From: a virus | Length of the DNA: 38,380 nucleotides | Virus record (IMG/VR): IMGVR_UViG_3300042391_001057 | Location: 1 to 38,380 of that record | Reading direction: 5' to 3' (one strand) | In this document: in pieces, positions 4,648 through 30,609 of the stretch | Numbering within the stretch: the stretch's first letter is position 1 | Layout of the letters: every line of letters starts with the position of its first letter | The notes under the pieces: generated by a model | The model's input: the letters and a program-made list of their open reading frames with translations, nothing else | What the model was told of the DNA's origin: nothing | Database searches by the model: none | Made by a program: the position numbers and the translations under genes

Positions 4648-5154
4648 TTAACTGTTTAAAACTTTTGCAACGCTGTTCATCACACTGGCAATACGACCGA
4701 TGTCACGAAGTTGTTCAACTGTGTAGCCTTCTGTCTTCAATGTCTCGTAGTGTGCCTTAACACAGAAGTGACACTTGCCCACAATACTAGCAGCAAGACT
4801 GAACGCTTCAAAGTTTGCCTTGGTAGTTCCACCATGTGATGCAATAGCATTCATGCGTAACTGTGCCGGCAAGCCTTTTAGTTGCGGATCATCTGCCATC
4901 TCAACGAATGGATACCAAACGTTATTCTGTGCCATAATACTTGCGGCTGTCATTGCCGATTCGGCATGCACTGGAGCGTCAGCTAACATAACAGCAAGTA
5001 CTTTTCCGTTACCAGTTGCAGCGAGTGCGGCTACAGCACAACCCATGGCCACATCAGCATCTAATGTACTACGCACTAGCACAGCGTCAAGATTTAACTT
5101 GGTGTCTTTTGCGTAGTCTGGCAACGCTGATTTAACTGCGTCGATGAATGCCAT
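4648..5154 (-). CDS. ahpD: AhpD-like alkylhydroperoxidase (carboxymuconolactone decarboxylase fold)
   Basis: A 168-residue protein. CHFCVKAHYETLK about residue 128 contains the CxxCxxxH thiol motif of AhpD, which passes electrons to the peroxiredoxin AhpC. Length is close to mycobacterial AhpD (~177). The ATG at 5154 overlaps the AhpC stop as TAATG, so the two are translationally coupled; a longer in-frame extension has no support. Located in the cytoplasm by family. Preceding it in the same transcript is its expected partner, which strengthens the call. Likely role: peroxide detoxification during infection. Confidence 0.9.
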   Translation of the reverse strand: MAFIDAVKSALPDYAKDTKLNLDAVLVRSTLDADVAMGCAVAALAATGNGKVLAVMLADAPVHAESAMTAASIMAQNNVWYPFVEMADDPQLKGLPAQLRMNAIASHGGTTKANFEAFSLAASIVGKCHFCVKAHYETLKTEGYTVEQLRDIGRIASVMNSVAKVLNS

Positions 5155-5693
5155 TATAGAGTCTCTCCGCCTACAGTACGGTTGCAAGCACACAGTTCGC
5201 CAGTTTGTAGCGCATCGAGGACACGAAGTGTTTCTTCTGGGCTACGACCAACATTCAAGTTATTAACTGTAACGTGCTGGATCTCGTTGTTTGGATCAAC
5301 GATGAATGTTGCGCGAAGTGCAGCACCTGCTGGAGCATAGAATACGCCAAGTTGCTCAATCAAGCTCAACTCACCACGTTGTGTGTCGGCAAACTGATTG
5401 TGTGTAATCTTCTTTAGATCTGCATGGGCCGTTTGCCAGCTAACTTTACAGAACTCATTGTCTGTGCTGCCTGTGAGCAATACCGCATCACGATCGGCAA
5501 AGTCGCCTGTCAACTTGTCGTATGCTACGATTTCTGTTGGGCATACAAATGTAAAGTCTTTTGGGTAGTAAACGATTACTTTCCACTTGCCTGGGAATGA
5601 TTCGTCTGTGATGTCAAAGAACGCATCTTCTGGTTGTCCTGGCTTAACGCCTGTGACTACGAATTTTTCTAATTTATCGCCAACTGTTTTCAT
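5154..5693 (-). CDS. ahpC: AhpC-type peroxiredoxin
   Basis: A 179-residue 2-Cys peroxiredoxin that reduces hydrogen and organic peroxides. The peroxidatic cysteine lies in YPKDFTFVCPTEI about residue 51, and candidate resolving cysteines are in LCACNRTVGG near the C-terminus. The double C-terminal cysteine resembles the AhpC class that works with AhpD rather than AhpF. Shine-Dalgarno AAAGGAG is well placed. A promoter at 5749-5777 precedes it. Coupled to ahpD downstream. Confidence 0.95.
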   Translation of the reverse strand: MKTVGDKLEKFVVTGVKPGQPEDAFFDITDESFPGKWKVIVYYPKDFTFVCPTEIVAYDKLTGDFADRDAVLLTGSTDNEFCKVSWQTAHADLKKITHNQFADTQRGELSLIEQLGVFYAPAGAALRATFIVDPNNEIQHVTVNNLNVGRSPEETLRVLDALQTGELCACNRTVGGETL

Positions 5694-7195: not shown

Positions 7196-7215
7196 TTGCG
7201 TTTGCTAAAATGTAG

Positions 7216-7245
7216 TCAAAAGAATAGGGACCGAAGTCCCTATCT
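7216..7245 (-). terminator. Terminator of the tmRNA gene
   Basis: GATAGGGAC and GTCCCTATT pair around a TTCG tetraloop on minus and run into CTTTTGAC. It closes the coding piece of the tmRNA. Confidence 0.8.
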
Positions 7246-7590
7246 AGTTATTGGTTTATAAGGTGACTAACCCCAGAGCTGTTGTTTCTTAGGCAACCAT
7301 TTCAAATTGCTCGTCATTCATTGCTGAAATGTCGAAGTCAACTGTGAAATACTCAAAAGTAGATGTGTTTGCATTTACTAGATTTGCTTGATTTAGAGTC
7401 ATCGCCTACTCAGTTGCCGTCTCTATTATCTCACCCTGTCGAAACCGGTCGGGCCCAGTAGGAAGTATATTAGAACTCAGTTTTCCCAGTTCAGACTTTA
7501 GAGTGTCTTATCGGGCTAATATACTTTCTGGTGGACCCGGGGGGAATCGAACCCCCGTCCAAGATGCCTTCACTTTGAAGGGATTACAAC
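7222..7590 (-). ncRNA. ssrA: Permuted (two-piece) tmRNA
   Basis: tmRNA rescues stalled ribosomes and tags the nascent chain. Here the order is inverted. On minus the acceptor piece comes first (about 7590-7529): T arm GGGGG-TTCGATT-CCCCC, acceptor strand CGGGTCC, A, encoded CCA. Then comes an intervening segment (7528-7457) whose arms AAGTATATTAG/CTAATATACTT pair. Then the coding piece starts at 7456 with GGGCCCG, which pairs with CGGGTCC, and the hallmark GGTTTCGACAGGG. The tag frame is at 7372-7289, and the piece ends at a terminator. Permuted ssrA genes are known from alphaproteobacteria, cyanobacteria and some betaproteobacteria. I did not resolve helix P2 or the pseudoknots. Confidence 0.88.
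7289..7372 (-). CDS. tmRNA tag peptide reading frame, 27 codons
   Basis: Resume codon GCA follows CTAGTAAAT, similar to the region upstream of the E. coli resume codon. The tag reads ANTSTFEYFTVDFDISAMND followed by EQFEMVA and TAA. It is longer than the 10-residue E. coli tag but starts with the common Ala-Asn and ends in small hydrophobic residues (MVA), compatible with protease recognition. Confidence 0.75.
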   Translation of the reverse strand, partial: ANTSTFEYFTVDFDISAMNDEQFEMVA

Positions 7591-7595
7591 TATTC

Positions 7596-7664
7596 TTACA
7601 TATAAAAATGTATCCAAAATAGAATAACAATTAAAACTGCTACAATAAATGGATACGCTTTCAT
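7596..7664 (-). CDS. Possible 22-aa single-membrane-span micropeptide
   Basis: The ORF reads MKAYPFIVAVLIVILFWIHF plus YM: almost entirely one hydrophobic helix. It begins 7 nt after the csp stop codon and sits before the tmRNA acceptor piece. The ribosome site is weak. It could be coincidental. Confidence 0.3.
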   Translation of the reverse strand: MKAYPFIVAVLIVILFWIHFYM

Positions 7665-9027: not shown

Positions 9028-11091
9028 TTATTTCTCGTGTGCCACGAACTCGCCGTTCCAGTTGTCACCCAAATCTTGCTGTTTCATGAACTCACAACGT
9101 TCAATCCACATCTTGTAGTACTTGTCCATTTGTCCACCAAAGTTGCCTTTTAGCTTTGCACACATTGCGGCAGCTTCATCAAACTTTTTCTGTCGATATA
9201 AATCGTGCATTACATCGTGTGCTATTTTATCTCTAGTGTAGTCAACGCCACGTGTACGCAAGACTGTATAGATTAAGTCGGCTACAGTCTTACCTTTAGG
9301 CTGTAAATTATCCAACAACAAGTAGAAGAAATCATCTTTAGTTCTGTTGTATGTTTCAGCACCAATAATACATAGTACACCATAGGCCTTACAACGTGCT
9401 TCTAAACGTGCCGCTGTTGAAACCATATCACCTAGAATGTCATAGCCGTGTCTTGCTGTTGATCCCATTTCGCCAATATAGCCATCGCCGGTATTACAAC
9501 CCCAACCCATTGCGGCTGGAGGCAAGCCCTGTGCTTCCATTATCTTAGTATACTCATCTACGCGATCTAACATCTCTAGTCCAACAGCAACGATAGTGTG
9601 AGCGTGTCGGTCATCATCTAACGGAGCACCGTGTATGTGCATACTCGCATCACCTACATACTTAAGAACCATGCCGTTAGCGTCAATAATAGGAATAGTA
9701 ATAGCATCCATATAGCCGTTCATATACTTGGCTAGTCCTTGCGGCCCGCCGTTGCCCGGCTTGTCAAAATATTCCCCAATTGGAGTGAAACCGCGTAAGT
9801 CACTGAACATAACTGATACGTCTTTCTTAATACCCTTCTTGATTAGGTCTGGATTCTCTTGTAACAGTCTAACAACTTCCGGACTACAGTAACCTGCAAA
9901 CTGTTTTTTAATTGCCTGCTTCTGTAAGAACTCGCTTACAAACTTAACGCCATAAGTATGAAGAGCAACGATAACAAGCCCAGCCGCGAGCGCAGTCGCG
10001 TCTCCCAGGATGAGCCAATTAGTGAAAGCGTAGATAGTACCAGGAACGACGGCACCAACAATAACCACAGTAGCACCAATGCCAACATAAGTCCACCTCG
10101 ATAAGAAAATTAGTAAAATACCAAACGCCAGTAATGCAGCAATTTCAACACCATCAGCATAATCTGGACGTTGTATAACAACCCCGTTGACCATTGTACC
10201 GATAACAGCCGCTTGTACTTCATGTGGAAATACTGCGCCCTTACTTGTTGGTACAGGATTGCTAATGCCTGCAGCCGTTGGTCCAACAATAACAATAGCA
10301 CCCATTAGGTCTTTTGGTAGTTGGGTAAGACTAAAATTACGACTTTCTTGACTCCAGTCAATCCATACACGACCTAGTGGATCCGTTGAGATAGGACCAA
10401 ACTTGGGTATACGCATTTTCTCAACGCCGCCTTCAAATAGCTTTACTTGGAATGTGGAATCGCCTGCGGCCACACGTAGCGTTTCTAAACTTAGTGCTGG
10501 ATATAGTTTGCCATCTACTGTGACAATTAAAGGCATACGACGATTAACACCGTCTACTTCAGGTAGTGTGCTGACAATACCAACACCCGCAGCATTGTTC
10601 TCTAACTGAGGTATGTTAGCAATCAGTCCCGGATACTGTACAATCTGATCTAAGAACTCTGGCCCTAGTACAGCACTACCCGGAACCCGAGGAGTGTTCT
10701 TTGTTTTGTTACTAGGAACTGAACCTAGCACTACAGGAAATTCTTTTAGAGTTTGACCCAGCGTACTGTCGCCACCTGAACGATCTGGTTCTGGCATGAG
10801 TACATTAAGTACAACAAGCCCTGCTCCCCTCGAATATAAGTCTCGTACAATTCGGGAATACTCAGCACGAGGCAACGGCCATTGTCCATATTTGTCTAAG
10901 CTCCTTTCATCAATGTCTACAGTAACTATGTTGTTAACAGTTACTTCTTTGCTAGTGATTAGTGTGTCAAAGTAGCGTAGTCTTACGCTTTCAACAAACG
11001 TAGGGTCTGCGATTCGTATGCCCACTACTAACGCTAGGGTTAATAGAGCAGTCCAAGGACTAGTTAATATTTTTTTAAATTGTATTCTCAT
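9028..11091 (-). CDS. CHASE2-domain class III adenylate cyclase
   Basis: A 687-residue membrane sensor. Order: membrane segment at 13-30; CHASE2-type extracytoplasmic domain to about 320 (VTVDIDERSLDKYGQWPLPR is its signature); three further membrane segments about 325-390; cyclase domain about 425-610. The cyclase has the metal-binding FSDLRGFT, KYVGDASMHIHG with the adenine-selecting Lys, and GDMVSTAARLEA with the transition-state Arg. The usual Asn of GDxVNxAARL is Ser here, which could lower activity. It should make cAMP in response to a periplasmic signal. It is the last gene of the curli-like operon and overlaps the preceding gene by 4 nt. Confidence 0.9.
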   Translation of the reverse strand: MRIQFKKILTSPWTALLTLALVVGIRIADPTFVESVRLRYFDTLITSKEVTVNNIVTVDIDERSLDKYGQWPLPRAEYSRIVRDLYSRGAGLVVLNVLMPEPDRSGGDSTLGQTLKEFPVVLGSVPSNKTKNTPRVPGSAVLGPEFLDQIVQYPGLIANIPQLENNAAGVGIVSTLPEVDGVNRRMPLIVTVDGKLYPALSLETLRVAAGDSTFQVKLFEGGVEKMRIPKFGPISTDPLGRVWIDWSQESRNFSLTQLPKDLMGAIVIVGPTAAGISNPVPTSKGAVFPHEVQAAVIGTMVNGVVIQRPDYADGVEIAALLAFGILLIFLSRWTYVGIGATVVIVGAVVPGTIYAFTNWLILGDATALAAGLVIVALHTYGVKFVSEFLQKQAIKKQFAGYCSPEVVRLLQENPDLIKKGIKKDVSVMFSDLRGFTPIGEYFDKPGNGGPQGLAKYMNGYMDAITIPIIDANGMVLKYVGDASMHIHGAPLDDDRHAHTIVAVGLEMLDRVDEYTKIMEAQGLPPAAMGWGCNTGDGYIGEMGSTARHGYDILGDMVSTAARLEARCKAYGVLCIIGAETYNRTKDDFFYLLLDNLQPKGKTVADLIYTVLRTRGVDYTRDKIAHDVMHDLYRQKKFDEAAAMCAKLKGNFGGQMDKYYKMWIERCEFMKQQDLGDNWNGEFVAHEK

Positions 11092-11555
11092 TCTGGCCTT
11101 CTTATCTCTACGTCATGCAACGACCCGTCTTCTTTTGTCCAGTTGGGTAATAGCCTGCTGAAAATACGACTATATACTCCTGCTCTCCCGCTTGATCCTT
11201 GTACATCATATTCTATCACTTGAATTTTATGGTCGTATTTTGTTATAAAATCTTTTATTATAGCAGTGATTGCTGATATAACTTGTGCCGCATTGCCGGT
11301 TCCAAGCATATTGGTCTTTCCATTGCCGGTGAAACTTATTTCCCAATACCCTCTATAGTCAACTTCTTCGACTTCCTCTTCATCATCGTAACCTACCATA
11401 TCGCGGTCTGCGTCTACGTGATCGTATTCTGAATTCTTTGCTTTGAATTCATACCGTACTTCGCCCACAGTGAATTCAGCAGTGGCTTGACGCTCGCTGC
11501 TATAAGTCCATTTCCACGGAACCGAAGTCGCCGCCATTAGTTCGTTGATTTTCAT
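11088..11555 (-). CDS. Unknown 155-aa protein, short N-terminal targeting-like peptide
   Basis: It begins MKINELMAATS, similar in style to the capsid-targeting starts of two nearby proteins but without an LxE site. The middle is acidic (DDEEEVEEVDY) and the rest mixed alpha/beta (YWEISFTGNGK, AQVISAITAIIKDFI). It overlaps the genes on both sides by 4 nt (ATGA type). No family recognised; such proteins are common in marine T4-like phages. Confidence 0.7.
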   Translation of the reverse strand: MKINELMAATSVPWKWTYSSERQATAEFTVGEVRYEFKAKNSEYDHVDADRDMVGYDDEEEVEEVDYRGYWEISFTGNGKTNMLGTGNAAQVISAITAIIKDFITKYDHKIQVIEYDVQGSSGRAGVYSRIFSRLLPNWTKEDGSLHDVEIRRPE

Positions 11556-12106
11556 TCTCTTCTATCCGTAGTTGAACTTTGGGGAATATGATCTTGTCCG
11601 TAACTTACACGGCTTCCAACAATTGCTTCTAAAGCAACGTGTAACGCTGTTCCAGACAAGTGTTTACGCAACCATTTTTCTGCTAGGTTGTTGATAATCT
11701 TTTCATTTGAATAAGCACGGCCGGCACCCTTAATTTTATCATGAACGTATGCGTGGCATGCTTCGTGAACAGCAATAGCAACATCTCGTGCAGCCTTGCT
11801 TTCTAAATTTGGTACATTGATACTACCGCCTGGGCCCGATTCTTCAGTGTCCCTAAACATAGGAGGTTCGTTGCTCTGATACACATAATACATACCGGGT
11901 TCTAAGTCGTCTTCGTCATCAGTAACACGCTTACGACCTAAAATATTTTCAATAGCATCATAGCAAGTCCACAATGTAGGAGCAGGTGCGCCACCTACTT
12001 TAGTTGTTGGCAACATTGGTTTATCTTCGGGATCAAATTCACCATATCGTTGTTTTAATTCAGCATCACTAGCTTCTGCTTCGGAAAGTATTTCGTATAT
12101 TTTCAT
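11552..12106 (-). CDS. HEXXH protein with T4-type capsid-targeting peptide
   Basis: The 184-residue protein starts MKIYEILSE/AEASD. This matches the short amphipathic capsid-targeting sequence of T4 internal proteins, with an LxE cleavage site (LSE) for a prohead protease. VHEACHAYVH about residue 120 is an HEXXH zinc-metallopeptidase motif. Together they suggest a protease packaged in the capsid and injected with the DNA. A third zinc ligand is not evident by eye. It lies within the curli-like operon, directly after the curlin-repeat adhesin. Function is inferred. Confidence 0.65.
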   Translation of the reverse strand: MKIYEILSEAEASDAELKQRYGEFDPEDKPMLPTTKVGGAPAPTLWTCYDAIENILGRKRVTDDEDDLEPGMYYVYQSNEPPMFRDTEESGPGGSINVPNLESKAARDVAIAVHEACHAYVHDKIKGAGRAYSNEKIINNLAEKWLRKHLSGTALHVALEAIVGSRVSYGQDHIPQSSTTDRRE

Positions 12107-12124
12107 CCAGTATTTAGCGAGATT

Positions 12125-13903
12125 TTACTGACGTACTACAGTATTACACCCTGCTGGATTTGTACAACTTTGAATAATAGTAAATGATTTGCCGCCTGTT
12201 TGCTGTAAATCTACGCTGGCAGCACCGCCTGCATTAGTTAGATCTATGTTGGCTTTATTTGCAGTGCTGCCAGACTGGTTGGCAATGACACTATTGCCGT
12301 TGCCTGTTAATTTATTCTCTAGATAGTGTCCGCCGGTTCCTTCTTGAACGGCGTTGATAGAGTTGTTACTACCATTAACTGTATTAAACATTATATTGTT
12401 TCCATTATCTTTTTGGATAGCGTTAATGGCGTTATTGTTACCTGTTAGTATTTTGGTTTCTTGATAGTTAGTACCTGCCGTATTAGATTGATTAGATGTA
12501 AGTTGATTTAGGTTGCCTTGTATTGCTGCTTCAAGATAGTTAACTCCGGTTTGGGTATTAGTAACTGTGTTACTATTGCCAACAATACCTAGGTTCATTG
12601 TATTCTTTGTGCCAGATTGCGTAATGGTTACATTGTTATAGTTGCCACTAACTTGATCAATATACAAATAGTTATTGTATTGCTGTGCAGTATTTTTCCA
12701 AGTATTCACTCTAGTTTGTTGACTGGCACTAATTCCTGCGGTACTAGAGCCGCCGCTGGTAATAGTTTGATTGGTAGGTGCATTTGTTTGTGAGATAGTG
12801 CCGCCTTCTACAGTTGGTCCGGATGCCGCAGTTACTGGGTCAACAATATTATTACTAGAAGCTGTACTTGTTGTTGTATTGTTAGCATCGTAGTAATAGG
12901 TAAGTTCAGCAATTTGCATACTGTCACAATTTAGTCCGCAGCCGTTACCTGCCTTAGTTGTAGGGAATAACATAAAGTAATATGCGTATGCTGTAGTATT
13001 GGTTATACTAATTACTGAACTTGTAGCAAAACGATTGTCGCTTAAAGTGATAGCGTCTTGTTTAATTAATACCCATGTTACTCCATCATTACTACCATAC
13101 AGTTTATAACTCGTAGGATCTCTACCACTAAAGTCGTTAGCAGTAGTAACAGTAAATCCTGTAACTACCCGACCTGTATTCAGTTGTACAGTAACTCCTG
13201 CATTTGCCTTGTCAAAATTTAGATACTTAGTATTAGGGTTATTGTCAAAAGCATTGTTAGGACCTTCTCCGCTTGGACTATTACTAGTTGTTGGAATCGC
13301 CCGTGTTATCTTCACTGTGGCATTATTCATATAAATTGCTGTCGGTGCCGGAGCAGGTGTAGCTGTATAAGTTTGTCCTGCTGCTAAGGGTGTAGTTGAA
13401 CCTGTTGTAGAAAATGTATTTGTTTGTGTTATTGTAGGATTAAGTGTGCCTGTGAAACTAAATCCAGTGCTATTAGGAAATCCGTAATCTGTACTAAACA
13501 CGGTACCGTTCCAGTTAGCGTTCATAAAGAAAAAGAAATGTTTTCCGCTGCTATCCGTAGCTGCTCCTTGTACACTTAGTTTACCATTGCCTAAGTTAGC
13601 AGCCACAGTGCCGTCACTATTATACACTTTCATAGTCCAAGGATAGTTAGCATCATTGCTTTGATTAAACTGTATGTACTGGGTACTAGATAAGGTATAA
13701 GGGCTCCCAGTGTTCCAACTTGTTCCAATACCGCTTAGACTATAAATTTGGCAAGTGTTAGTTTGTGTACAAGCAGAGACGTTCCATTGGGAATCACTAA
13801 ACTGAGATTTACCAAATTTTAAATCAGCAAAGCCGGCAGCTTGACTATGTGCGCTCAAGCAAAACGAAAGCAAAAAAGAAAATAATAGTAATAAACGAGT
13901 CAT
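12125..13903 (-). CDS. Exported discoidin-domain adhesin with curlin repeats
   Basis: A 592-residue secreted protein. A signal peptide (1-22, ending AHSQAAG) is followed by a domain of unknown type. A probable F5/8 type C (discoidin) carbohydrate-binding domain spans about 205-335 and contains YKLYGSNDGVTW. A Ser/Thr/Asn-rich linker leads to curlin repeats from about 425 to 575, such as YIDQVSGNYNNVTITQSGTK. E. coli CsgA and CsgB have only the repeat part, so this looks like an amyloid-anchored sugar-binding tip or minor subunit. The ATG overlaps the FecR gene stop by 4 nt. Confidence 0.85.
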   Translation of the reverse strand: MTRLLLLFSFLLSFCLSAHSQAAGFADLKFGKSQFSDSQWNVSACTQTNTCQIYSLSGIGTSWNTGSPYTLSSTQYIQFNQSNDANYPWTMKVYNSDGTVAANLGNGKLSVQGAATDSSGKHFFFFMNANWNGTVFSTDYGFPNSTGFSFTGTLNPTITQTNTFSTTGSTTPLAAGQTYTATPAPAPTAIYMNNATVKITRAIPTTSNSPSGEGPNNAFDNNPNTKYLNFDKANAGVTVQLNTGRVVTGFTVTTANDFSGRDPTSYKLYGSNDGVTWVLIKQDAITLSDNRFATSSVISITNTTAYAYYFMLFPTTKAGNGCGLNCDSMQIAELTYYYDANNTTTSTASSNNIVDPVTAASGPTVEGGTISQTNAPTNQTITSGGSSTAGISASQQTRVNTWKNTAQQYNNYLYIDQVSGNYNNVTITQSGTKNTMNLGIVGNSNTVTNTQTGVNYLEAAIQGNLNQLTSNQSNTAGTNYQETKILTGNNNAINAIQKDNGNNIMFNTVNGSNNSINAVQEGTGGHYLENKLTGNGNSVIANQSGSTANKANIDLTNAGGAASVDLQQTGGKSFTIIQSCTNPAGCNTVVRQ

Positions 13904-15009
13904 CGCTGTACTATGGTAATGATAGTATTACCGCCTTGATTGATTCTGTTCTTAAACTCCAGTGTGCCCTGTGTTTGAAAGAGTGTTGAGTTTTGTGTAG
14001 TCGGAGTTGAGATACATTGTATATCTGCACCGTTGTCTCTACACAGTTGAATATTCATTTCGTCTCGAGTGACCACAATGCCACTGGCTTTTCTATAGTC
14101 AGGTAATACAGGATCTACTGGTGCTAAAAAGTTTTCGTCTAAGGCACTTCCAATAATGTCAAACAAACTACCTAGAAAATCATTTGCCAAAAAGTTTCTC
14201 TCTAATTGACTTGTATAGAACATTTTGTTCTGCTCATCTAACATGTTTTTTAATTCTTCTCTATCTAGCGCATTAACGTCTAGTGCATTAAATGATTTTG
14301 ATTCTGCTGCTACTGCTCGTCTCACTTCTGCCGGAGGACTAAGTATTAACAGATTGCCAATGGCCATTTCGCTTAGATTTAAAATCACAGGCTTGCTTGG
14401 CGGCGTATCTCTGCTGGTAACTTTTGTAACTTGAAACGGTTTGTTTAGTATAACAAATCCAGCATCAGTTTGCACTTCGATTTCGCCAGTCTTACAAGCT
14501 GCTTCGACGTCTTTTACAGTTCTCATGGGTCTATCATTTGGGCAACTTGGTAGTAGTACTATAGTACTTTCACCTAGTTCTTCAACTGTAGCTGTAAAGT
14601 CGGTGCCACGAACAGCAATAGTAGCAGTAGGTGTACTAAGCGCAACATTTCTTGGGCTATTATGTGCAATCGCTCCGCTGGCATATCTCACAGTGCCTAG
14701 TGCAATCTTTGCACCAAGTTTACCAGTTTTGCTTTTTGGATCATAAACGAAATCATCTATGACTAGTTTTGAATTTTCGTTGACTTGTACTCTAGTGGCA
14801 TCTTCAAACGTAATACCAATCTTTCCTTGTGAAGTTTTGATAGTGTCGTTCATTTCTACACCCACACCTTTTTTTGCATCAAGTGTTTGTTTTTGTCTTT
14901 GTATTTCTGCAGGCCTATTGATCTGCTCGGTTACGTTGCCAATGGCAGCACTAACAGCCGATGAAATCCCTAGCAATATTAATGCTACAATACATTTGCG
15001 AGATCTCAT
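13900..15009 (-). CDS. Exported FecR-domain protein
   Basis: 369 residues. Signal peptide 1-21 (VALILLGISSAVSAA). A FecR domain at about 45-150 shows GVEMNDTIKTSQGKIGITF, ENSKLVIDDF and VALSTPTATIAVRGTDFT, the hallmark ending. Such domains are periplasmic; in bacteria they often accompany surface systems and CHASE2 proteins, which this operon also encodes. The C-terminal half is helical then beta-like, and residues 360-369 (NTIITIVQR) resemble a curlin-repeat end. It may sense or anchor the fibre in the periplasm. Confidence 0.85.
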   Translation of the reverse strand: MRSRKCIVALILLGISSAVSAAIGNVTEQINRPAEIQRQKQTLDAKKGVGVEMNDTIKTSQGKIGITFEDATRVQVNENSKLVIDDFVYDPKSKTGKLGAKIALGTVRYASGAIAHNSPRNVALSTPTATIAVRGTDFTATVEELGESTIVLLPSCPNDRPMRTVKDVEAACKTGEIEVQTDAGFVILNKPFQVTKVTSRDTPPSKPVILNLSEMAIGNLLILSPPAEVRRAVAAESKSFNALDVNALDREELKNMLDEQNKMFYTSQLERNFLANDFLGSLFDIIGSALDENFLAPVDPVLPDYRKASGIVVTRDEMNIQLCRDNGADIQCISTPTTQNSTLFQTQGTLEFKNRINQGGNTIITIVQR

Positions 15010-15021
15010 CAGCCATGTACC

Positions 15022-16005
15022 TTAGTTTTTCTGTAGAACAGTAAGACTATTACTGCTGCCCGATACTTTGATATTAGCAAGATTATCAACACTTCCTTGT
15101 TGTGTAATACTGATAGTGTTTAATGTACTACCTGCTACTAATTCTAAAGTAGTTTTTTGACCTAGTGTATTACCACCACTCTGCGCTAGAGTAATAGTAT
15201 TGTCATTGCTACCGCTGTTTAGTTTAAGATTAGCATACTGGTCAAATGCACCAGTTTGTGTTATAGTAGTATCATTGCCAGAACCGATTATATCTAATAT
15301 AATCTGTGCGCCATTTGTACTGGATGCACTTTGAGTAATATTAGTAATATTAGTAGCGCCAAGTGTAGTTACACTAACTTGACCTTTGTTGCCAGTCATG
15401 TTTACTGTGGTCTCGTTACCACCACCGCCGGTTTGATTAAATGTTGCTACAGTTTCGTTAGCATTAATATCACCAGTGAATATGTTACCACTACCACCTG
15501 CTGTATTTACAGTCAATTGATTAGATGTACCTGTCATACGTAGGTCAACAGTACCACCGCCGTCTTGAGTAATTCCTACTACGTTACCGCTGGCAGTGCC
15601 TTGACCGTTATTGTTAATATTAATAAAGCCGGTGTTATTGCCGCCAGACACTTGATAGTTTAAGTTTACGCCAATGTTGGTATTGTTTGCAACATTGCCG
15701 CCTTGGGTTGAGTTAATACCTAACGTCAGGACGTTGTTTGCGCCAGTTTGTGTAATGTTAACTGTTTGTGCATCTCCTCTTAGTTTAGCAGGATCAGTAT
15801 TGCCTCCTGCTGTACCGTTGGTTAAGACACCTTTAACTTTATTACCTGCACCATCTTGCGTCATGTTGATAGTACTATTATCACCGGCCTGATCAATGTA
15901 TATGCTGTTGTCCGCAGCATAGCCCAGTGTTGCTATTGCAGACAACACCAGAATTGTGAGTAATTTTCTCGACAACTCACCACCGCCTGTTTTTATATTT
16001 TTCAT
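15022..16005 (-). CDS. Curlin-repeat protein (CsgA/CsgB-like amyloid subunit)
   Basis: 327 residues: signal peptide, then imperfect repeats along the whole chain, rich in Asn, Gln, Gly and Thr (IDQAGDNSTINMTQDG, NITQTGANNVLTLG, TITQTGAFDQYANLKL). This fits functional amyloid subunits exported through CsgG, and it is about twice the E. coli CsgA length. The annotated ATG at 16005 gives a charged N-tail MKNIKTGGGE. A TTG eleven codons later, behind GGTGGTGAG, would give a more typical signal peptide (SRKLLTILVLSAIATLGYA), so the start is uncertain. It follows csgG in the operon. Confidence 0.88.
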   Translation of the reverse strand: MKNIKTGGGELSRKLLTILVLSAIATLGYAADNSIYIDQAGDNSTINMTQDGAGNKVKGVLTNGTAGGNTDPAKLRGDAQTVNITQTGANNVLTLGINSTQGGNVANNTNIGVNLNYQVSGGNNTGFININNNGQGTASGNVVGITQDGGGTVDLRMTGTSNQLTVNTAGGSGNIFTGDINANETVATFNQTGGGGNETTVNMTGNKGQVSVTTLGATNITNITQSASSTNGAQIILDIIGSGNDTTITQTGAFDQYANLKLNSGSNDNTITLAQSGGNTLGQKTTLELVAGSTLNTISITQQGSVDNLANIKVSGSSNSLTVLQKN

Positions 16006-16096
16006 TATGTTTCATAGTTGAGTTATTTGTAATTTTTGCCCCAACTAGCTCCTTGGCTATTAGCCGTTATTTTTATCACCCTTACTAAATCTAACA

Positions 16097-16918
16097 TTAC
16101 TCTTGAGGAACTAACGGAGTCTCCGTTTTAAATTCCCATACACCCTTGCGTTGCCCTTCTTTGATTAGCTCTACGACTGCCATCTCTACTGTTGCTTTAA
16201 CCGCATAAGTGCCCGGTTCGTTGATTGTTAATCCTGCTTCTGCTTCAAATGCCTGTGTACCTTGATCAAAGAATTTAAATGCAGTTACTGAATCAGCACT
16301 GCTTAAAATAGTTTTCTGTACTGCAACTGTTGCCAATACCTTACCAGTGTTTACGCTCACTGCTCGTAGACTTACTGTCACTGTATCAGTTGACCACTGT
16401 GTCTGCTTACCAATGCCGAATACACGTTGCCCTATACCTCCACTAGTTGTGCTGGAATCATAACCGACAATACCGCCTTCTAAAATAAGTCCAGCAAACA
16501 TCATCGGCATCAACGGTTTAGCATCTTTGCCTTCGTATGCTTCACGCATCTGTCTAATGATTAATCGTTCTTTAGTTAGATTATCAATTCCCACACGCTC
16601 AACAACATCAAACCATTGCCCACGACCCACATTCTGCAATGATTGGATTAGAAAAGTTTCAGCGCCTTGTGTAACAGCCGAACTTAAACTTGCAATGTTA
16701 GCCTGTGGCTTACGCTGTCCTGTTAAATCTCGAAAACTGTAAACTGCCACGCTAACTGGTCTGCCTGCTGCCGGCGCAGGAATATTATCAAACTCTTTCT
16801 TAACATTCTTCATCTGAGTCGTTAGTTCCGGAGTCTTATCAAGTTCTCCAGTTGATTGCATTAGAGCACAGCCAGATAATAAACTTGTTATTGCTAGAGA
16901 TAAAATAATTTTCTTCAT
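16097..16918 (-). CDS. csgG: CsgG-like curli secretion channel lipoprotein
   Basis: 273 residues, close to E. coli CsgG (277). A lipoprotein signal with lipobox LLSGC (Cys about 17) targets it to the outer membrane. VSVAVYSFRDLTGQRKP is the characteristic CsgG motif, followed by the conserved domain through about 250 (FDVVERVGIDNLTKERLI, GGIVGYDSSTTSGG). CsgG forms the nonameric outer-membrane pore for curli subunits. It starts 1 nt after the csgF stop and is followed by the curlin gene. Such a protein in a phage-like context is unusual. Confidence 0.93.
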   Translation of the reverse strand: MKKIILSLAITSLLSGCALMQSTGELDKTPELTTQMKNVKKEFDNIPAPAAGRPVSVAVYSFRDLTGQRKPQANIASLSSAVTQGAETFLIQSLQNVGRGQWFDVVERVGIDNLTKERLIIRQMREAYEGKDAKPLMPMMFAGLILEGGIVGYDSSTTSGGIGQRVFGIGKQTQWSTDTVTVSLRAVSVNTGKVLATVAVQKTILSSADSVTAFKFFDQGTQAFEAEAGLTINEPGTYAVKATVEMAVVELIKEGQRKGVWEFKTETPLVPQE

Positions 16919-16919
16919 A

Positions 16920-17426
16920 TTATAATCCCGGCATCTGGAATGACTCTAATGGAACATAGATAGCTGTTGTACTACCGTTAGTATCAGTTACATTTAGTAG
17001 TATACAAGTACCGTTGGTAGATCCTGTACAGTTTATAGCATCGCTAACCCTACTCCAGGCAATAGTACTTCCTTGGAATGTAATCGATCCTTGGCAATCT
17101 GCAGATCTTACACTACAACTATTATTGGCAAACATAGCGGTTGCAACGTTCTGTGATATCTGTGCGTATATGCGACTTTCTAAGTTGCTTAAAAACTTAG
17201 AAAGATTAGTGTTTTTAGCTTCACTAGCAGCCTTATCGATCGCTGCTTGTATTTTGTCTTGTTGTGCTTTTTGGCGTGTTGCTTCTTGATTCTCAATAGT
17301 TAAGACGTGACTACTGTAACCTGCTCCATTAAAAGCCGGGCTTTTAAATTGAAAATCTGCCAATGGAGCCGACAAGACTACAGTTGGTAATAGCAGGGCC
17401 GCTATCAGGCTTTTTGTTTTGGACAT
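16920..17426 (-). CDS. csgF: CsgF-like curli assembly factor
   Basis: 168 residues: signal peptide (1-19), then FQFKSPAFNGAGYSSHVLTIE, which resembles the mature N-terminus of CsgF that inserts into and narrows the CsgG pore. A coiled/helical middle (about 45-85) follows, then a beta-rich C-terminus with CTGSTNGTCIL. It is the first gene of the operon, with Shine-Dalgarno GGGAG. A stable hairpin lies just upstream. No CsgE candidate is seen nearby. Confidence 0.85.
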   Translation of the reverse strand: MSKTKSLIAALLLPTVVLSAPLADFQFKSPAFNGAGYSSHVLTIENQEATRQKAQQDKIQAAIDKAASEAKNTNLSKFLSNLESRIYAQISQNVATAMFANNSCSVRSADCQGSITFQGSTIAWSRVSDAINCTGSTNGTCILLNVTDTNGSTTAIYVPLESFQMPGL

Positions 17427-17505: not shown

Positions 17506-18999
17506 TTACTTAATAGCAAAGCTAAGTGGAGCAATAGGCTTACGTGTAGCCATATAGTTGTTATCTGCAACCATTAAGAATGTACCACTAAAGATAGGAG
17601 GATAAATTACTGTAAACTGATTAAAGGCTGCACCGTCGCCATTTTTCTTCACTGAAGTTTTTACCTGTACCATGTTAGATCTTTCTAAAATGGCTCTAAA
17701 TAACTCACTAGTGCTGCTATCTTTGTTTACAATATTGGCAATATTCTTTGCTACACAGGCCAATAAATGATAACCTAGATTATAAGCAGGGTCGTCAAAC
17801 TTGGCGCCTTTAACCTTGATTAACCCGTGGAGGTTAGAAGTAATCATTCGTTGTTTAAGTGCAGCATCCGGATGGATTCTAACCTGTTTCTTCATCAAGT
17901 CTACTATAGTTGTTGCTTCTCGTTCTGTAATAAATCCAAATGTGTCTACACCAATAATTAACGGACCATTGATGCCTTTGTTTCCCTGAGTAGCTGTTCC
18001 CCAATAGACGCTAGGGGCTGATGCAATAGTTTTTAAAATTTCAAAAGTTTGAGACCATTTCTGATTTTCAAAGATGTCTTGATACTTCTCTGGCGTCTTT
18101 GTAACAGCGTCGACTAGTCCAGTAATACTAGCTGCTGCGCCGCCCTTCTTATCCTTTGAGCTTACTTTTAAATTGTTATTTTTATCAAGTTTTATGTAAC
18201 TGTCATAGATCTTTTCGCCGCCGGCACTAGGGAACAATACTTGACTAAGACTAGCCCAAGTTAATCCTAATGGTGCAAGTAGTCCTTCTTCGGCTGCTTG
18301 ATAATCGCCACCTACAAAATTTCCAGTAACTAATGCAATGGGTGCTGCTGTTTCGCCAAAATCAACTTCTAGCGAAGTATCATATTGACCCATGCCAGCA
18401 ACCGGCTCTTGCGAGCCGTCTGTAATATTTTGTAATAACTGAACTAATCCAGCTTTCATATTATCATCAAAATCTTGTCTTCCTGCAATAAACGATTCAA
18501 CGGCTGTCGGAATAGTAGATGCCTGCAGCCAAGAGTCAGATTGAATTACGTCTTTTGGTTTTAATTTTAATGTTTGACGCTGTGCTGTCTTACCTTGAGC
18601 GCCGTATCCGAATGATTTTTTAAAATCTGCATTTGTCTGTAGTACCGGAGCTGCACCTGCTCCTGGTTTTTTAACTAGTTTTACAAAGGCCATTAACTCT
18701 TCTGTTTCGACATCTTTCCAAATGCTAACTAGACCTGCACGAGCAGTTGCCGGGTTACCGGTAAATTGAGTTTTTTCTTGTGCTACACTGTTAGTGGAAA
18801 GGTAGTCTTGCAACCCTTGGTCTAACTCATCTTCAGTTTCAAAACTACCAGTAGTAGGAACCATTTGGGCGCTGACTAAACTAATTTCGTTATTATGTTC
18901 TGCATGTTTAAAGCGAACTTCGCCGCCTTGGCCTACTTCTTGGGCTCTACGGAATATTCCGCCCTGTGACTCGGTTAGTTTGAATTCGTGAAATCTCAT
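17506..18999 (-). CDS. 497-aa probable internal virion protein with capsid-targeting peptide
   Basis: The ATG at 18999 is chosen because the protein then begins MRFHEFKLTE/SQGG, a capsid-targeting-like start with an LxE cleavage site (LTE). The longer frame adds 17 residues from inside the preceding gene. The rest is mixed alpha/beta without membrane segments (KLKPKDVIQSDSWLQ, PLIIGVDTFGFITER, NMVQVKTSVKKNGDGAAFNQ). I cannot name its fold. In T4, proteins with this start are packed in the head and ejected. Its position between the curli-like operon and the bilin genes gives no functional clue. Confidence 0.7.
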   Translation of the reverse strand: MRFHEFKLTESQGGIFRRAQEVGQGGEVRFKHAEHNNEISLVSAQMVPTTGSFETEDELDQGLQDYLSTNSVAQEKTQFTGNPATARAGLVSIWKDVETEELMAFVKLVKKPGAGAAPVLQTNADFKKSFGYGAQGKTAQRQTLKLKPKDVIQSDSWLQASTIPTAVESFIAGRQDFDDNMKAGLVQLLQNITDGSQEPVAGMGQYDTSLEVDFGETAAPIALVTGNFVGGDYQAAEEGLLAPLGLTWASLSQVLFPSAGGEKIYDSYIKLDKNNNLKVSSKDKKGGAAASITGLVDAVTKTPEKYQDIFENQKWSQTFEILKTIASAPSVYWGTATQGNKGINGPLIIGVDTFGFITEREATTIVDLMKKQVRIHPDAALKQRMITSNLHGLIKVKGAKFDDPAYNLGYHLLACVAKNIANIVNKDSSTSELFRAILERSNMVQVKTSVKKNGDGAAFNQFTVIYPPIFSGTFLMVADNNYMATRKPIAPLSFAIK

Positions 19000-19009
19000 A
19001 GTATAATAT

Positions 19010-19696
19010 TTATCGTATTTCGGGAAACAGACAATCTTGTACAAATACATCTACATCCGCTTCACTAAGCCCTAAACTAACCATTACCTTAGGAGTATGG
19101 GGGTTCTGTTTTTGATTTTGTGCGTAGTAATTCTGTTCTGCTTTAGTACTTGTTACTGTATTATTTGTTTCGTCTACAGCACTTAAATAGTGGTCTAAAT
19201 GCTTTCGGGCCATACTGAGTATTTGTTCTAGTTCAGCTGGATCGCTTACATTTCCAGCTGCAATCATATGTTTAGTAAAAATGCGTTGAGCCCATTCAGG
19301 TAATGCACGAGGCTTATTCCATTCTAATTTGCCGGATTCGTTGGCAAACCAATCAATAAGCGGATGTTCTGTATCGCCTGCTGGACTGAAATCATGAAAG
19401 CATCCGGTGATTTTATTTTTACCGGCAACTATATCAAACCCAAATATTGGAGCAGGGTTATGTAGATGTGGGAATACACAACAATGCATCATCCACAGCC
19501 CTTTTGTATCTCGAGCATCTACAACATCAATATGGGCACGTCGATATCGACTACTGGCCCAGACCTTGTTTACCCAGCCAGGTTGATTAAATCGATGCAT
19601 ACCGGGTTCTTCAATTATACTGCCGGTAGCATAAAACTTTGATTCAAAGTATTGTTCTACTTGTACCAATGTTTCCCACACATTACTCGCCGTCAT
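19010..19696 (-). CDS. Ferredoxin-dependent bilin reductase (PcyA/PebS/PcyX group)
   Basis: 228 residues. PIFGFDIVAGKNK and GCFHDFSP match the conserved core of this family, which reduces biliverdin to phycobilins with electrons from ferredoxin. The start overlaps the heme oxygenase stop by 14 nt, so substrate-producing and substrate-using enzymes are coupled. Marine phages are known to carry PebS and PcyX. The compact length and heme-oxygenase partner suit PcyX, but choosing the subclass needs a phylogeny. The second catalytic Asp in the C-terminal half was not pinned down. Confidence 0.85.
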   Translation of the reverse strand: MTASNVWETLVQVEQYFESKFYATGSIIEEPGMHRFNQPGWVNKVWASSRYRRAHIDVVDARDTKGLWMMHCCVFPHLHNPAPIFGFDIVAGKNKITGCFHDFSPAGDTEHPLIDWFANESGKLEWNKPRALPEWAQRIFTKHMIAAGNVSDPAELEQILSMARKHLDHYLSAVDETNNTVTSTKAEQNYYAQNQKQNPHTPKVMVSLGLSEADVDVFVQDCLFPEIR

Positions 19697-20228
19697 ACAG
19701 ATCTCGCATCATAGAGATGGCAAATTCAAATGCCATTTTAGCTTCGTCGCCTAGATCATCTGTTAGCATACTGCGGATGGACATTTTCATAGCATCGGCA
19801 TTGTTAAATTCGTAAAACTTGCCGCTAGAAATATGTGCTACTTGCTTCTTAATAATCTGCCCACCAAACAGATCGCCCATATGGCGAACATATAAGTGTG
19901 CTTTGACTAAATGCTTGTTATCAGGATCGTTACCTAGTGCATGTAGGTATGCTTGGTATTCTAAGGTTGCAGGAGTTAGGTAGCAATATGTACCGTCGTC
20001 TAGTTCTAAAAAGTCTGCTAGAATGCCTTTGAGTCTAGGCAAGTCTTGCATATTATCAAAAAACCCTTGACGCTTACAGTACCACTCAATTGGATCATAG
20101 ATAGCCAGCAAGTTGTACAAATAGTTTTTGTACTCCTGCTTGCCGATCTTACCGCTAAGTAGCATCTTAGCGAATGTAGTTGTTTCTGCTTCGTGGTGTA
20201 AATCTTTTGTGATTTCTTTTAAGCTCAT
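19683..20228 (-). CDS. ho1: Heme oxygenase
   Basis: 181 residues. The proximal His lies in KDLHHEAE about residue 11, and the distal helix with HMGDLFGGQIIKKQ about residue 117, both diagnostic. The enzyme opens heme to biliverdin, CO and iron. It overlaps clpS upstream by 4 nt and the bilin reductase downstream. It is shorter than cyanobacterial HO1 (~240), lacking a C-terminal extension. The product may serve as bilin precursor, or the released iron may feed IscU and the diiron ribonucleotide reductase encoded in this window. Confidence 0.93.
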   Translation of the reverse strand: MSLKEITKDLHHEAETTTFAKMLLSGKIGKQEYKNYLYNLLAIYDPIEWYCKRQGFFDNMQDLPRLKGILADFLELDDGTYCYLTPATLEYQAYLHALGNDPDNKHLVKAHLYVRHMGDLFGGQIIKKQVAHISSGKFYEFNNADAMKMSIRSMLTDDLGDEAKMAFEFAISMMRDLYDGE

Positions 20229-20527
20229 TCTTCTTCCATTTTAATCTGGAGCGGAAAGCCATTTGATCTTGCTAACTGTGTTGATTCAACAGCCTTTACT
20301 TCGGCAATCTCAAAACTATATATTCCGGCTACACCACTTCCTGTATTATGTATCTCTACAGTAATTTCCTTTGATGTTTCTTGAGTATGTTTAAAAATAG
20401 TTTCTAAGATTCCCATTACGAAATCCATTGGAGTTGAATCATCGTTCAACAATATAACTTTAAAACGTTTAGGTTCCTGAACTTGTTGCTTAATCTTTTC
20501 GTCAATTTGAATTTCAGTTGTTGGCAT
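20225..20527 (-). CDS. clpS: ClpS N-end-rule adaptor
   Basis: 100 residues from the ATG at 20527, which has GGAG seven nt upstream. The core FKVILLNDDSTPMDFVM is the ClpS signature containing the N-degron pocket residues (NDD, M), and the GSGVAGIYSFEIAEVK segment fits the ClpA-binding side. ClpS hands proteins with destabilising N-termini to ClpAP and inhibits ssrA-tag degradation in E. coli, which is notable since this genome also encodes a tmRNA. No ClpA or ClpP is in the window, so it must act with host protease. Confidence 0.92.
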   Translation of the reverse strand: MPTTEIQIDEKIKQQVQEPKRFKVILLNDDSTPMDFVMGILETIFKHTQETSKEITVEIHNTGSGVAGIYSFEIAEVKAVESTQLARSNGFPLQIKMEEE

Positions 20528-20544
20528 GATAGTCTCCAAAGTGG

Positions 20545-20564
20545 GGGAGTTGCCTCCCCCGGTT
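20545..20564 (-). other. GC-rich hairpin between hsp20 and clpS
   Basis: GGGGGAG-GCAA-CTCCCCC forms a very stable 7-bp stem. No U-tract follows, so it may stabilise mRNA ends or lower read-through. Confidence 0.6.
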
Positions 20565-20575
20565 GATGTATATAT

Positions 20576-20998
20576 TTACTTAATTTCGATACGTCGAGGT
20601 TTCAAAGCTTCTGGAACTAGACGTTGGATATCAATGTGTAGCATTCCGTCTGCTACTTTGGCGCCAACGACTTCCATGTACTCAGCTAGGGTAAACGTCT
20701 GTTCGAAATCTCTAGCGGCTAATCCACGGTGCAAATATTCAACTGCTGAATCGTTAGGACGATTCTTAATACCGCGAATTGTCAGCTGATCTTGATCTAC
20801 TTCTACCGTAACTTCGTCTTTAGTAAACCCTGCGACAGCAACTTCGATACCGTAACTATTGTCACTATATTTTACAATATTATGTGGAGGATAGTTACCA
20901 TTTTGATGATGCGGTGCTGTAAAGTAGCGATCAAACCCTACTAGGGCTCTACTTAGATTAGCCAATGCGGCTGTGTCGATTGTTCTTAATTGTGTCAT
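20576..20998 (-). CDS. Small heat-shock protein (Hsp20/IbpA family)
   Basis: 140 residues, the size of E. coli IbpA/IbpB. The start LVGFDRYF and the alpha-crystallin domain (about 35-125: IEVAVAGFTKDEVTVEV, LTIRGIKNR, YLHRGLAARDFEQTF) are clear, followed by a C-terminal tail with PEALKPRRIEIK. It prevents aggregation and hands clients to DnaK, encoded immediately upstream. It has a separate promoter and a stem-loop leader. Hsp20 genes are common in marine T4-like phages. Confidence 0.95.
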   Translation of the reverse strand: MTQLRTIDTAALANLSRALVGFDRYFTAPHHQNGNYPPHNIVKYSDNSYGIEVAVAGFTKDEVTVEVDQDQLTIRGIKNRPNDSAVEYLHRGLAARDFEQTFTLAEYMEVVGAKVADGMLHIDIQRLVPEALKPRRIEIK

Positions 20999-21008
20999 TA
21001 TATTTCTC

Positions 21009-21088
21009 CTTTAATTAAGCAAGAATTAAGTGAGGCCTCACCCGAGCGCCTCATTCTTAAGTATACATTATCTGTATGTGTGTGTCAA
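21009..21088 (-). promoter_or_regulatory. hsp20 promoter and structured leader
   Basis: TTGACA (21083-21088) overlaps the dnaK stop codon; a 17-bp spacer leads to TATACT (21060-21065). The leader forms a stem-loop (AAGAATGAGGC with GCCTCACTTAATTCTT, partly) and ends in TTCTTGCTTAATTAAAGGAG, almost the same as the dnaK leader. Confidence 0.8.
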
Positions 21089-22980
21089 GTCTTATCCTTA
21101 ACTTCTGTAAATTCAGCATCCACAATGCCGTCATCACTTGGTTTAGGTTGCGATGCTTCTTGTTCAGCTTTGGCTTTGGCTTCCATTACTGGCTGTGCTT
21201 TTTCAAACAATGATTGCATTGCCTTATGAATAGCTTCAGAGTCTTCACCTGCCTTGGCATCATCTACAGCTTTGATAGCATCTTCGATAGCTGTCTTCTG
21301 TTCATCAGTTAATGAACTTTCGACATCTTTCATATCAGTGTGCAGGTTGTGTACAGATGCTTCTGCCTGATTACGTGCTTCAATGAGAGTACGTTGCTTC
21401 TTGTCAGATTCAGCGTTAACTTCTGCTTCCTGAACCATGCGTTCAATCTCTTCCTTGGTAAGTCCACTATCAGATTTAATAGTAATCTTGTTTTCCTTAC
21501 CTGTGTTCTTGTCCTTGGCGCTAACGTGCATAATGCCGTTAGCATCAATATCAAGTGTAACTTCAATCTGTGGCTGGCCACGGCGTGCTGGAGCAATACC
21601 TTCTAGATTAAATTCACCAAGTGCTTTGTTATACTGAAACAGTTCACGCTCGCCTTGTGCTACCTTGATAGTAACAGCTGGCTGATTGTCATCCGCTGTA
21701 CTAAATGTTTGACTGGCTTTAGTTGGAATGGTTGTGTTCTTGTTAATCAACTTGGTAAACACGCCGCCCATTGTTTCAATACCAAGACTCAATGGTGTAA
21801 CGTCTAACAATAGAACGTCTGTACGATCGCCTGCCAATACACTACCTTGAATGGCAGCGCCTGCTGCAACTGCTTCGTCTGGGTTAACATCACGACGCGG
21901 TGCTTTGCCAAACAACTTCTCAACAGTTTCCTGTACCTTAGGCATACGTGTCATACCACCAACAAGGATAACCTCGTCAATGTCGCCGGCTGATACACCA
22001 GCATCTGCCATTGCTGTTTTGCATGGCTTAACACTACGCTCGATTAGTTCTTCTACTAGACTTTCTAGTTTGCTACGAGTCAACTTGACATTCAAATGCT
22101 TAGGTCCTGCAGCATCCGCAGTTACATAAGGCAAGTTAACATCTGTCTGAGCACTGCTAGACAGTTCAATCTTGGCCTTTTCTGCCGCTTCTTTCAAACG
22201 TTGTAATGCCAGTACATCATTCTTAAGGTCAATACCGTTGTCCTTCTTGAACTCATCAACTAGGAAGTCCATAATACGTTGGTCAAAGTCTTCACCACCT
22301 AGGAATGTGTCACCGTTGGTACTTAGAACTTCAATTTGCTTATCACCATCAACATCTGCGATCTCAATGATTGATACGTCGAATGTACCACCACCAAGGT
22401 CGTAAACAGCAATTTTCCTATCTTTTTTATCAGCTTTATCAACACCATAAGCAAGAGCTGCCGCAGTAGGCTCGTTAATAATACGGAGTACTTCCAAGCC
22501 TGCAATTTTTCCAGCATCCTTAGTCGCCTGTCTTTGGCTGTCGTTAAAGTACGCAGGAACTGTAATAACTGCTTGTGTAACTTCATGTCCTAGATAATCC
22601 TCGGCAGTCTTTTTCATCTTGCGAAGAACTTCTGCGCTAATTTGCGGAGGAGCCAACTTGTCCTCATTTACCTGTACCCATGCATCGCCATTGTCAGCTT
22701 TGACAATTTTGTAGGGCATTAAATTGATATCTTTCTGAACCGCTTGCTCGTCAAACTTACGTCCGATTAGTCGCTTGCTGGCATAGATAGTGTTTTTGGG
22801 GTTTGTTACTGCTTGACGCTTTGCTGAAGCGCCTACTAGAATTTCATTGTTAGCGTATGCTACGATACTAGGTGTAGTACGTGCGCCTTCGCTATTTTCA
22901 ATTACTTTTGTGACTCCGTTTTCAATAACGGCTACGCATGAATTTGTAGTACCTAAATCGATACCGATGACTTTGCTCAT
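21085..22980 (-). CDS. dnaK: DnaK (Hsp70) chaperone
   Basis: 631 residues, full bacterial DnaK length (~638). Nucleotide-binding motifs [26 protein letters not shown] and [11 protein letters not shown], linker [18 protein letters not shown], a substrate-binding domain and a C-terminal [12 protein letters not shown] tail are intact. It should be an active ATP-driven chaperone, with host DnaJ and GrpE since neither is seen here. Hsp20 follows; IscU with its LPPVK site lies 8 kb away. Shine-Dalgarno AAGGAG. High similarity to bacterial DnaK suggests acquisition from a host. Confidence 0.97.
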
Positions 22981-28858: not shown

Positions 28859-29164
28859 TTATTTAAAGAATATCAAAACCATTAAGGTGCTTTGGATAAT
28901 AAATCCAAGTCCGATCGTGATAACATTGAGCATATCCTTTTGAACAGCTGCTTTGGCAAACAATAAAGTTAGGCCTGCCCAAATCAAAAGAACAATGTCA
29001 GCTGTAGGCATCTTATCAGTTAGTCCAGCCATAACGGCTAGTAAACTAGGAATAGTTGCAGCATGAATAACAATTACGGCTAACCATCCCAACGTTTCTG
29101 CACTAATATGAGCAAACTTTTCTTTGACGAAATTGCTTACATTTTGAATATCAAAGTCTTTCAT
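28859..29164 (-). CDS. Membrane protein next to the cell-wall hydrolase
   Basis: 101 residues with about three membrane helices (LGWLAVIVIHAATIPSLLAV, TADIVLLIWAGLTLLFA, MLNVITIGLGFIIQSTLMVL). Overlaps the hydrolase gene by 4 nt. The pairing suggests a holin for the lysis cassette, but neither sequence nor topology proves this. Confidence 0.6.
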   Translation of the reverse strand: MKDFDIQNVSNFVKEKFAHISAETLGWLAVIVIHAATIPSLLAVMAGLTDKMPTADIVLLIWAGLTLLFAKAAVQKDMLNVITIGLGFIIQSTLMVLIFFK

Positions 29165-30276: not shown

Positions 30277-30609
30277 TCAATACCAGTTTTCTACAACCAT
30301 TTCGAGCAATTCGTCCAATTCTGTGCCGTGAAATCGTTCTGATAGACTATATTCGGCATCTTCAGTGTTGTAGTAGTCGGATACGCCTACAATTTCCAAA
30401 ACTTCTCGTTTCGATAACGGTTCGTTTCGCATGTGGCTTACCCAAACTACAGTCATAACAGCACAGACAAATACTGCCTGATCGTTATCTATCCCTCGTT
30501 CTTCGCACCAGTTAACTGTATGATTGAGATAGTAGTCGATATCTTCAATTCTATTTTCTAACTGTGTTATCCAGTGTTGCGTGTGAGATCTGGACCAAAC
30601 TCTTGTCAT
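30277..30609 (-). CDS. Unknown 110-aa protein linked to the Isc genes
   Basis: Helical protein rich in Trp and acidic residues ([40 protein letters not shown]). Its start overlaps the iscA stop by 4 nt, so it belongs to the iscU-iscA operon. No family recognised. Confidence 0.65.

Follow-up and report, generated by a model that had tools for sequence, protein, structure and literature searches.

Curli-type secretion genes in bacteriophages are already known and were described between 2020 and 2022 (PMC7029224, PMC9004378, PMC9599517): CsgF and CsgG were reported in pelagimyophages (PMC7029224), a lysis pore was proposed for the phage Melnitz (PMC9004378), and a set consisting of CsgF, CsgG, CsgA/B, FecR and an adenylate cyclase was described in pelagiphages (PMC9599517). 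We have analysed here a curli-like operon in the 38,380-nt IMG/VR record IMGVR_UViG_3300042391_001057 (the whole of this stretch is referred to as the window). Its core genes, CsgF-CsgG-curlin-FecR-curlin-cyclase, have the same order and strand as in the cultured phages HTVC008M (gp014-gp019) and Melnitz (gp99-gp104), and its CsgG is 46-47% identical to theirs. With csgG and csgF adjacent, curlins and FecR downstream, a cyclase and a phage genome around them, the operon is thus a further member of a kind known from HTVC008M, Melnitz and the literature, and the novelty implied by an earlier reading of the DNA without database searches (the sequence-only reading) was set too high. The window differs from the two cultured phages by the insertion of a HEXXH gene and a small gene before the cyclase and by its DnaK-Hsp20-ClpS-heme oxygenase-bilin reductase neighbourhood. 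Added here are the rigidity of the module, the exchangeable heads of its second curlin, the FecR protein as a probable fibre partner and the HEXXH protein as probable virion cargo.

The sequence-only reading had described a run of eight open reading frames (ORFs) in one direction, and all eight are found on the minus strand where it had placed them. The csgF gene (16920..17426; PF10614, 8.7e-8) encodes the outer-surface partner of the CsgG pore, with a signal peptide, and ends 1 nt from csgG (16097..16918; PF03783, 8.7e-47), which encodes the outer-membrane lipoprotein pore. The lipobox of CsgG is LSGC, its Cys17 is invariant in the alignment, and its profile matches the solved CsgG structures 6lqh/3x2r at about 1e-67. 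The first curlin, a CsgA/B-like fibre subunit (15022..16005), follows after 91 nt and the FecR-domain protein (13900..15009; PF04773, 9.9e-10) after a further 12 nt; the latter gene overlaps by 4 nt that of the second curlin, which bears an F5/8C (CBM32-like) head (12125..13903; PF00754, F5_F8_type_C, 2.9e-12). Next come, after 18 nt, a metalloprotease-like HEXXH protein (11552..12106) and a small protein (11088..11555), both without a Pfam match, and finally the CHASE2 adenylate cyclase (9028..11091; PF05226, 5.7e-38; PF00211, Guanylate_cyc, 2.5e-12), these last two junctions being 4-nt overlaps. The junctions had been given correctly as 1-4, 12 and 91 nt, apart from the 18-nt gap, which went unmentioned. 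The matches of the window proteins to CsgG, CsgF, FecR, F5/8C, CHASE2 and the cyclase domain lie above the curated Pfam cut-offs, and the identity of the operon components can be regarded as practically certain. The clear CsgG and CsgF signatures that had been claimed are thereby borne out, as is, together with the linkage on contigs of relatives described below, the claim that a phage encodes an export channel, the plug for it and amyloid substrates.

Some related CsgG proteins (loci L002, L006, L007, L016, L026, L028, L033 and L060 of our set) are extended at the C-terminus by a linker and a bacterial SH3-like domain, which possibly ties the pore to peptidoglycan; this extension is absent from the window CsgG. 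The loop of the phage CsgG proteins apparently has non-aromatic residues at the positions of the aromatic constriction of Escherichia coli CsgG (Tyr51 and Phe56).

The module is rigid. Scanning IMG/VR with CsgG as query gave 62 loci at 54-86% identity, and csgF lies immediately upstream of csgG in 62/62 of them. Among loci with enough flank, a homologue is present at the same place for the first curlin in 52/52 relatives, for FecR in 48/48 and for the second curlin in 49/49; the counts are not independent, as several near-identical copies recur across assemblies. In the four pairs computed, the ratio of nonsynonymous to synonymous substitution rates (dN/dS) is 0.03-0.21 for all six genes of the core, and by this measure the module is under purifying selection. 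No match to CsgE (PF10627) was obtained in the window or in 15 related contigs, which are possibly fragments, while the E. coli control does match.

Both curlins, like the FecR-domain protein, have signal peptides. The first contains N/Q/G/S/T-rich repeats and gives a borderline match to Curlin_rpt (PF07012; E 6e-4), scoring 20.1 bits where the cut-off stands at 20.7. The second, to which Pfam itself assigns no curlin repeat, is considered a curlin because such a match is obtained for 24 of the 39 aligned proteins, because its tail matches the first-curlin family in profile-profile comparison (hhalign probability 99.5) and because AlphaFold2 predicts a beta-solenoid at residues 411-591, with a predicted local distance difference test score (pLDDT) mostly of 84-95. 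Simple regular expressions for curlin repeats gave no clear excess over shuffles in the window proteins, and no solved curli fibre is among the best 50 Foldseek matches of the second curlin. This protein has a conserved stalk that closes with a Cys pair, and its head differs between phages: the window and a few relatives have F5/8C, other relatives have PA14 and GLEYA, and roughly 14 short proteins have none. For instance, HTVC008M gp018 (locus L071, 10638-11963), which is annotated as hypothetical, combines a PA14 head (2.7e-6) with curlin repeats, whereas no head is recognised on the Melnitz second curlin. The window head weakly resembles CBM32 sugar-binding modules according to Foldseek. 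Judging from these alignments, the second curlin combines a constant stalk, predicted to be a solenoid, with an exchangeable head, and family membership suggests that the heads bind sugars.

Between the two curlins, the FecR-domain protein departs from what its name implies. In an alignment of 36 FecR proteins, a Sec-type signal-peptide-like start is directly followed by the FecR domain, and neither this alignment nor the AlphaFold2 model has an N-terminal anti-sigma domain or a membrane helix before it. The model (mean pLDDT 72) comprises the FecR fold, a low-confidence, disordered linker (residues 223-298) and a C-terminal six-strand arcade (residues 311-368, pLDDT about 78-90). Foldseek matches the protein to the FecR/PupR periplasmic domains 4m0h and 6ovk at about 1e-4, and weakly to the cell-surface anchoring domain 5ix9. 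The tail carries an N[ST]xIxxxQ motif at a 21-residue spacing (52 observed against 2.5 in shuffles, an excess inflated by kinship), and fecR overlaps the second-curlin gene by 1-4 nt in 41/49 relatives. The sensor role previously claimed for this protein is unlikely, as is that of a regulator, because it is an exported protein without an anti-sigma domain, and its translation overlaps that of the second curlin. It is probably an exported fibre partner and no iron regulator, which alters the model of the module. FecR-CHASE2 pairing is not a common bacterial habit by our count: a FecR ORF is adjacent in 3/32 bacterial CHASE2 loci (flanks of about 1.5 kb), and this adjacency is suggestive only.

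The cyclase is a membrane protein that combines a periplasmic CHASE2 sensor with a class III catalytic domain. Class III cyclases use two metal-binding Asp, an adenine-specifying Lys and Asp, and a transition-state Asn and Arg; the window enzyme keeps both metal Asp, the Lys, the Asp and the Arg, and the catalytic Asn is replaced by Ser in its clade and in Melnitz. In other relatives this position is taken by a second cyclase, of the Asn type. CHASE2 cyclases that read an outer-membrane protein have been described in Sinorhizobium meliloti (NsrA with CyaD1/D2/K; PMC13001267), and by analogy the phage CHASE2 cyclase may read fibre assembly.

Taken together, the predicted components make the display of fibres by infected cells likely. 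We lean, by a modest degree, towards amyloid fibres on the infected-cell surface that would capture neighbouring cells or mask the cell from rivals. The infected cell would export curlin 1 through CsgG-CsgF, and curlin 1 would polymerise on the surface; the FecR protein and the headed curlin 2 would take the same route and cap, nucleate or decorate the fibre. The curlin-2 head could then bind sugars on neighbouring cells, on particles or on the cell's own envelope, while the CHASE2 cyclase would sense the state of the periplasm or fibre assembly and raise cyclic AMP. The most likely benefit would be that new hosts are kept close ('sibling capture') or that the infected cell is masked from rival phages. 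The fuller scheme, a phage-made sugar-binding amyloid adhesin with a constant shaft, an exchangeable head, a FecR cap or adaptor and a CHASE2 cyclase reporting assembly, is put forward more tentatively. If true, phages, including the cultured HTVC008M, would encode a cell-surface adhesin of exchangeable specificity. The purpose of phage curli genes has been in question since 2020, and the headed curlin of HTVC008M (gp018) makes binding assayable.

Several points weigh against fibre display and the roles given to its parts. Melnitz cultures showed no clumping (PMC9004378), which may reflect the headless second curlin of this phage. The cyclase is present in 30/34 relatives and none was seen in 4/34. 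Homology of the FecR tail to curlins was rejected (hhalign probability 0.7-2%); the tail is curlin-like by motif and predicted fold, and the fibre-partner role is drawn from these two features and from gene coupling. A late promoter for the curli operon was also rejected: the exact T4 late-promoter octamer TATAAATA, which in relatives precedes hsp20 (9/30) or dnaK (5/13) by 65-90 nt, is essentially absent near curli genes (1/36 at csgF) and does not occur before the window operon.

Three other functions have to be weighed. The fibres might chiefly keep other phages off the infected cell, instead of bringing cells together. This would use the same genes, and curli protection from competing viruses was raised in PMC9599517, but the exchangeable heads of sugar-binding type would be unexplained unless they mask the cell's own receptors; we regard it as rather unlikely. 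In the proposal made for Melnitz, which the sequence-only reading had also entertained, a closed CsgG-CsgF pore opens late, collapses the envelope and triggers lysins. Gene order and pore modelling led to this idea (PMC9004378), and the absence of CsgE, the normal gate, would fit it. Yet a bare pore needs neither curlins nor FecR, none of which is missing from any relative with enough flank and all of which are under purifying selection, and the window has a cell-wall hydrolase of its own (29161-29706). Lysis alone would leave two conserved curlins and lectin-like heads without explanation, and we consider it improbable as the purpose of the module. An open CsgG pore importing nutrients (iron, siderophores or heme), with FecR read as an iron regulator, was suggested in PMC9599517, and the heme oxygenase and bilin reductase genes upstream of the operon could be cited in its favour. 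However, a FecR protein with a signal peptide and without an anti-sigma domain cannot regulate as FecR does, many relatives carry the curli module without heme genes, and the scan of window proteins revealed none for iron transport, so that nutrient import is also quite improbable. Surface display of fibres remains our preferred reading.

No recognised structural phage gene lies within the 38-kb window, and the assignment to a phage rests on longer syntenic contigs of relatives. T4 gp23 is encoded together with the prohead protease gp21 on curli-bearing IMG/VR contigs of 215, 230 and 329 kb, and gp23 also on two further ones (270 and 246 kb); the gp23/gp21-linked contigs come from several independent assemblies. 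Within the window, the ribonucleotide reductase matches phage-type profiles, and 13 tRNAs and a permuted transfer-messenger RNA (tmRNA) lie near the record end, as in large phages. The viral nature and the linkage to phage structural genes, both claimed in the sequence-only reading, are supported by these contigs, which also answer its proposed check against a bacterial chromosome or a chimera. It is scarcely credible that the operon is a bacterial passenger in decay, part of a bacterial chromosome or a product of chimeric assembly, since the missing structural genes and the cellular-looking heme, chaperone and peroxiredoxin genes of the window are outweighed by the linkage of curli genes to gp23 and gp21 in several independent assemblies, by intact frames with low dN/dS and by the tRNA-tmRNA group of large-phage style. 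The carrier thus appears to be a large T4-like aquatic phage, which extends the module to such phages with chaperone and bilin genes. The tmRNA (7198-7637) is of the beta type (Rfam beta_tmRNA, RF01850, 121.5 bits) and suggests a betaproteobacterial host; against this, Melnitz shows that the tmRNA of a phage may differ in type from its host (PMC9004378).

A bacterial source of the module was sought and not retained: in a non-exhaustive comparison, the clear chromosomal CsgG loci (mostly of Rhizobiales and Hyphomonas types) lack the matching FecR and cyclase. Six-gene loci do occur in 'bacterial' records, mostly on small metagenome-bin contigs and in two cases on contigs of 121-142 kb; these are probably phage contigs. 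Complete or near-complete phage-type curli modules are filed under Rhodobacteraceae, Maricaulis, Sphingobacteriales and others (L107, L115, L125, L128, L130-L132), and are probably mis-binned phage contigs.

The HEXXH gene and the small gene belong to the same run, as had been claimed, but not to the curli system: by their distribution they appear to be variable cargo and no curli parts. Of the 35 viral loci with a HEXXH homologue, many have no curli genes, and homologues of the small protein (at 85-87%) were found only beside HEXXH, in 4 loci. The N-terminus of the HEXXH protein is a T4-type leader, MKIYEILSE/A, closing at a gp21-type (I/L)xE site. In relatives, the slot upstream of csgF is occupied by unrelated leader-bearing genes, and in the window an inner start of the gene at 17506..19050 (minus strand) gives the capsid-targeting-like leader MRFHEFKLTE/SQGG. 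The leader motif was found on 21/936 unique module-adjacent ORFs, where shuffled sequences gave 0.09, and it follows none of 3673 internal Met; one match is inside a CsgG and evidently due to chance, leaving 20 credible ones. Because of this leader, which is like that of T4 internal proteins, virion packaging is probable for the HEXXH protein and for several products of the genes between bilin reductase and csgF, and the leader points to a set of such proteins. About 20 largely unrelated ORFs with leaders of the type MRAKEFLxE were observed in L002, L009, L012, L013, L031, L040, L042, L044, L050, L052 and L054; it is possible that this type marks virion-packaged proteins.

The upstream order DnaK-Hsp20-ClpS-heme oxygenase-bilin reductase is common, whole or in part, to many relatives. 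In the window, overlapping genes for heme oxygenase (PF01126, 3.7e-21) and ferredoxin-dependent bilin reductase (PF05996, 3.5e-17) lie at 19010-20228, and the ClpS, Hsp20 and DnaK genes form a conserved run at 20225-22980. The heme oxygenase-bilin reductase pair precedes the curli operon in many relatives, with two consecutive reductase ORFs in L009, L012 and L013; related cassettes have been described (PMC11480375). Also in the window are an AhpC and AhpD-like (CMD) peroxiredoxin pair (4648-5693), the AhpC being 92% identical in L012 and L013, there near the curli cyclase; IscA- and IscU-like iron-sulfur assembly genes, recognised by sequence inspection (30606-31296), with homologues near curli in L020 and L037; and a B12-binding radical SAM protein (2124-3590; PF04055, 1.3e-8).

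Set against known systems, the cargo recalls the T-even internal proteins, a diverse set of defence proteins with only the leader in common (PMC3012670): a short leader, M[KR]xxEF[IL]xE, likewise stands before unrelated bodies, and the gp21 protease is present on three contigs related to the window, packaging and cleavage being predicted here from sequence. The FecR protein shares the periplasmic fold of the FecR/PupR signalling regulators, but differs from them in lacking the anti-sigma domain and internal membrane helix and in having a signal peptide and a C-terminal beta-tail. The pelagiphage podo- and myovirus type VIII secretion systems (T8SS) agree with the window in their six genes, in having no CsgE, and in CsgA/B repeats, FecR and an adenylate cyclase (PMC9599517); the main text of that paper makes no mention of heads, of a FecR signal peptide or of CHASE2, and its podoviral modules begin with a histidine kinase, which was not seen in the window module. 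The curli system of E. coli (csgBAC, csgDEFG) shares with the window the CsgG pore, CsgF and curlin substrates; compared with it, the window lacks CsgE by our search, has no recognised CsgC or CsgD, and possesses in addition a FecR protein and a CHASE2 cyclase.

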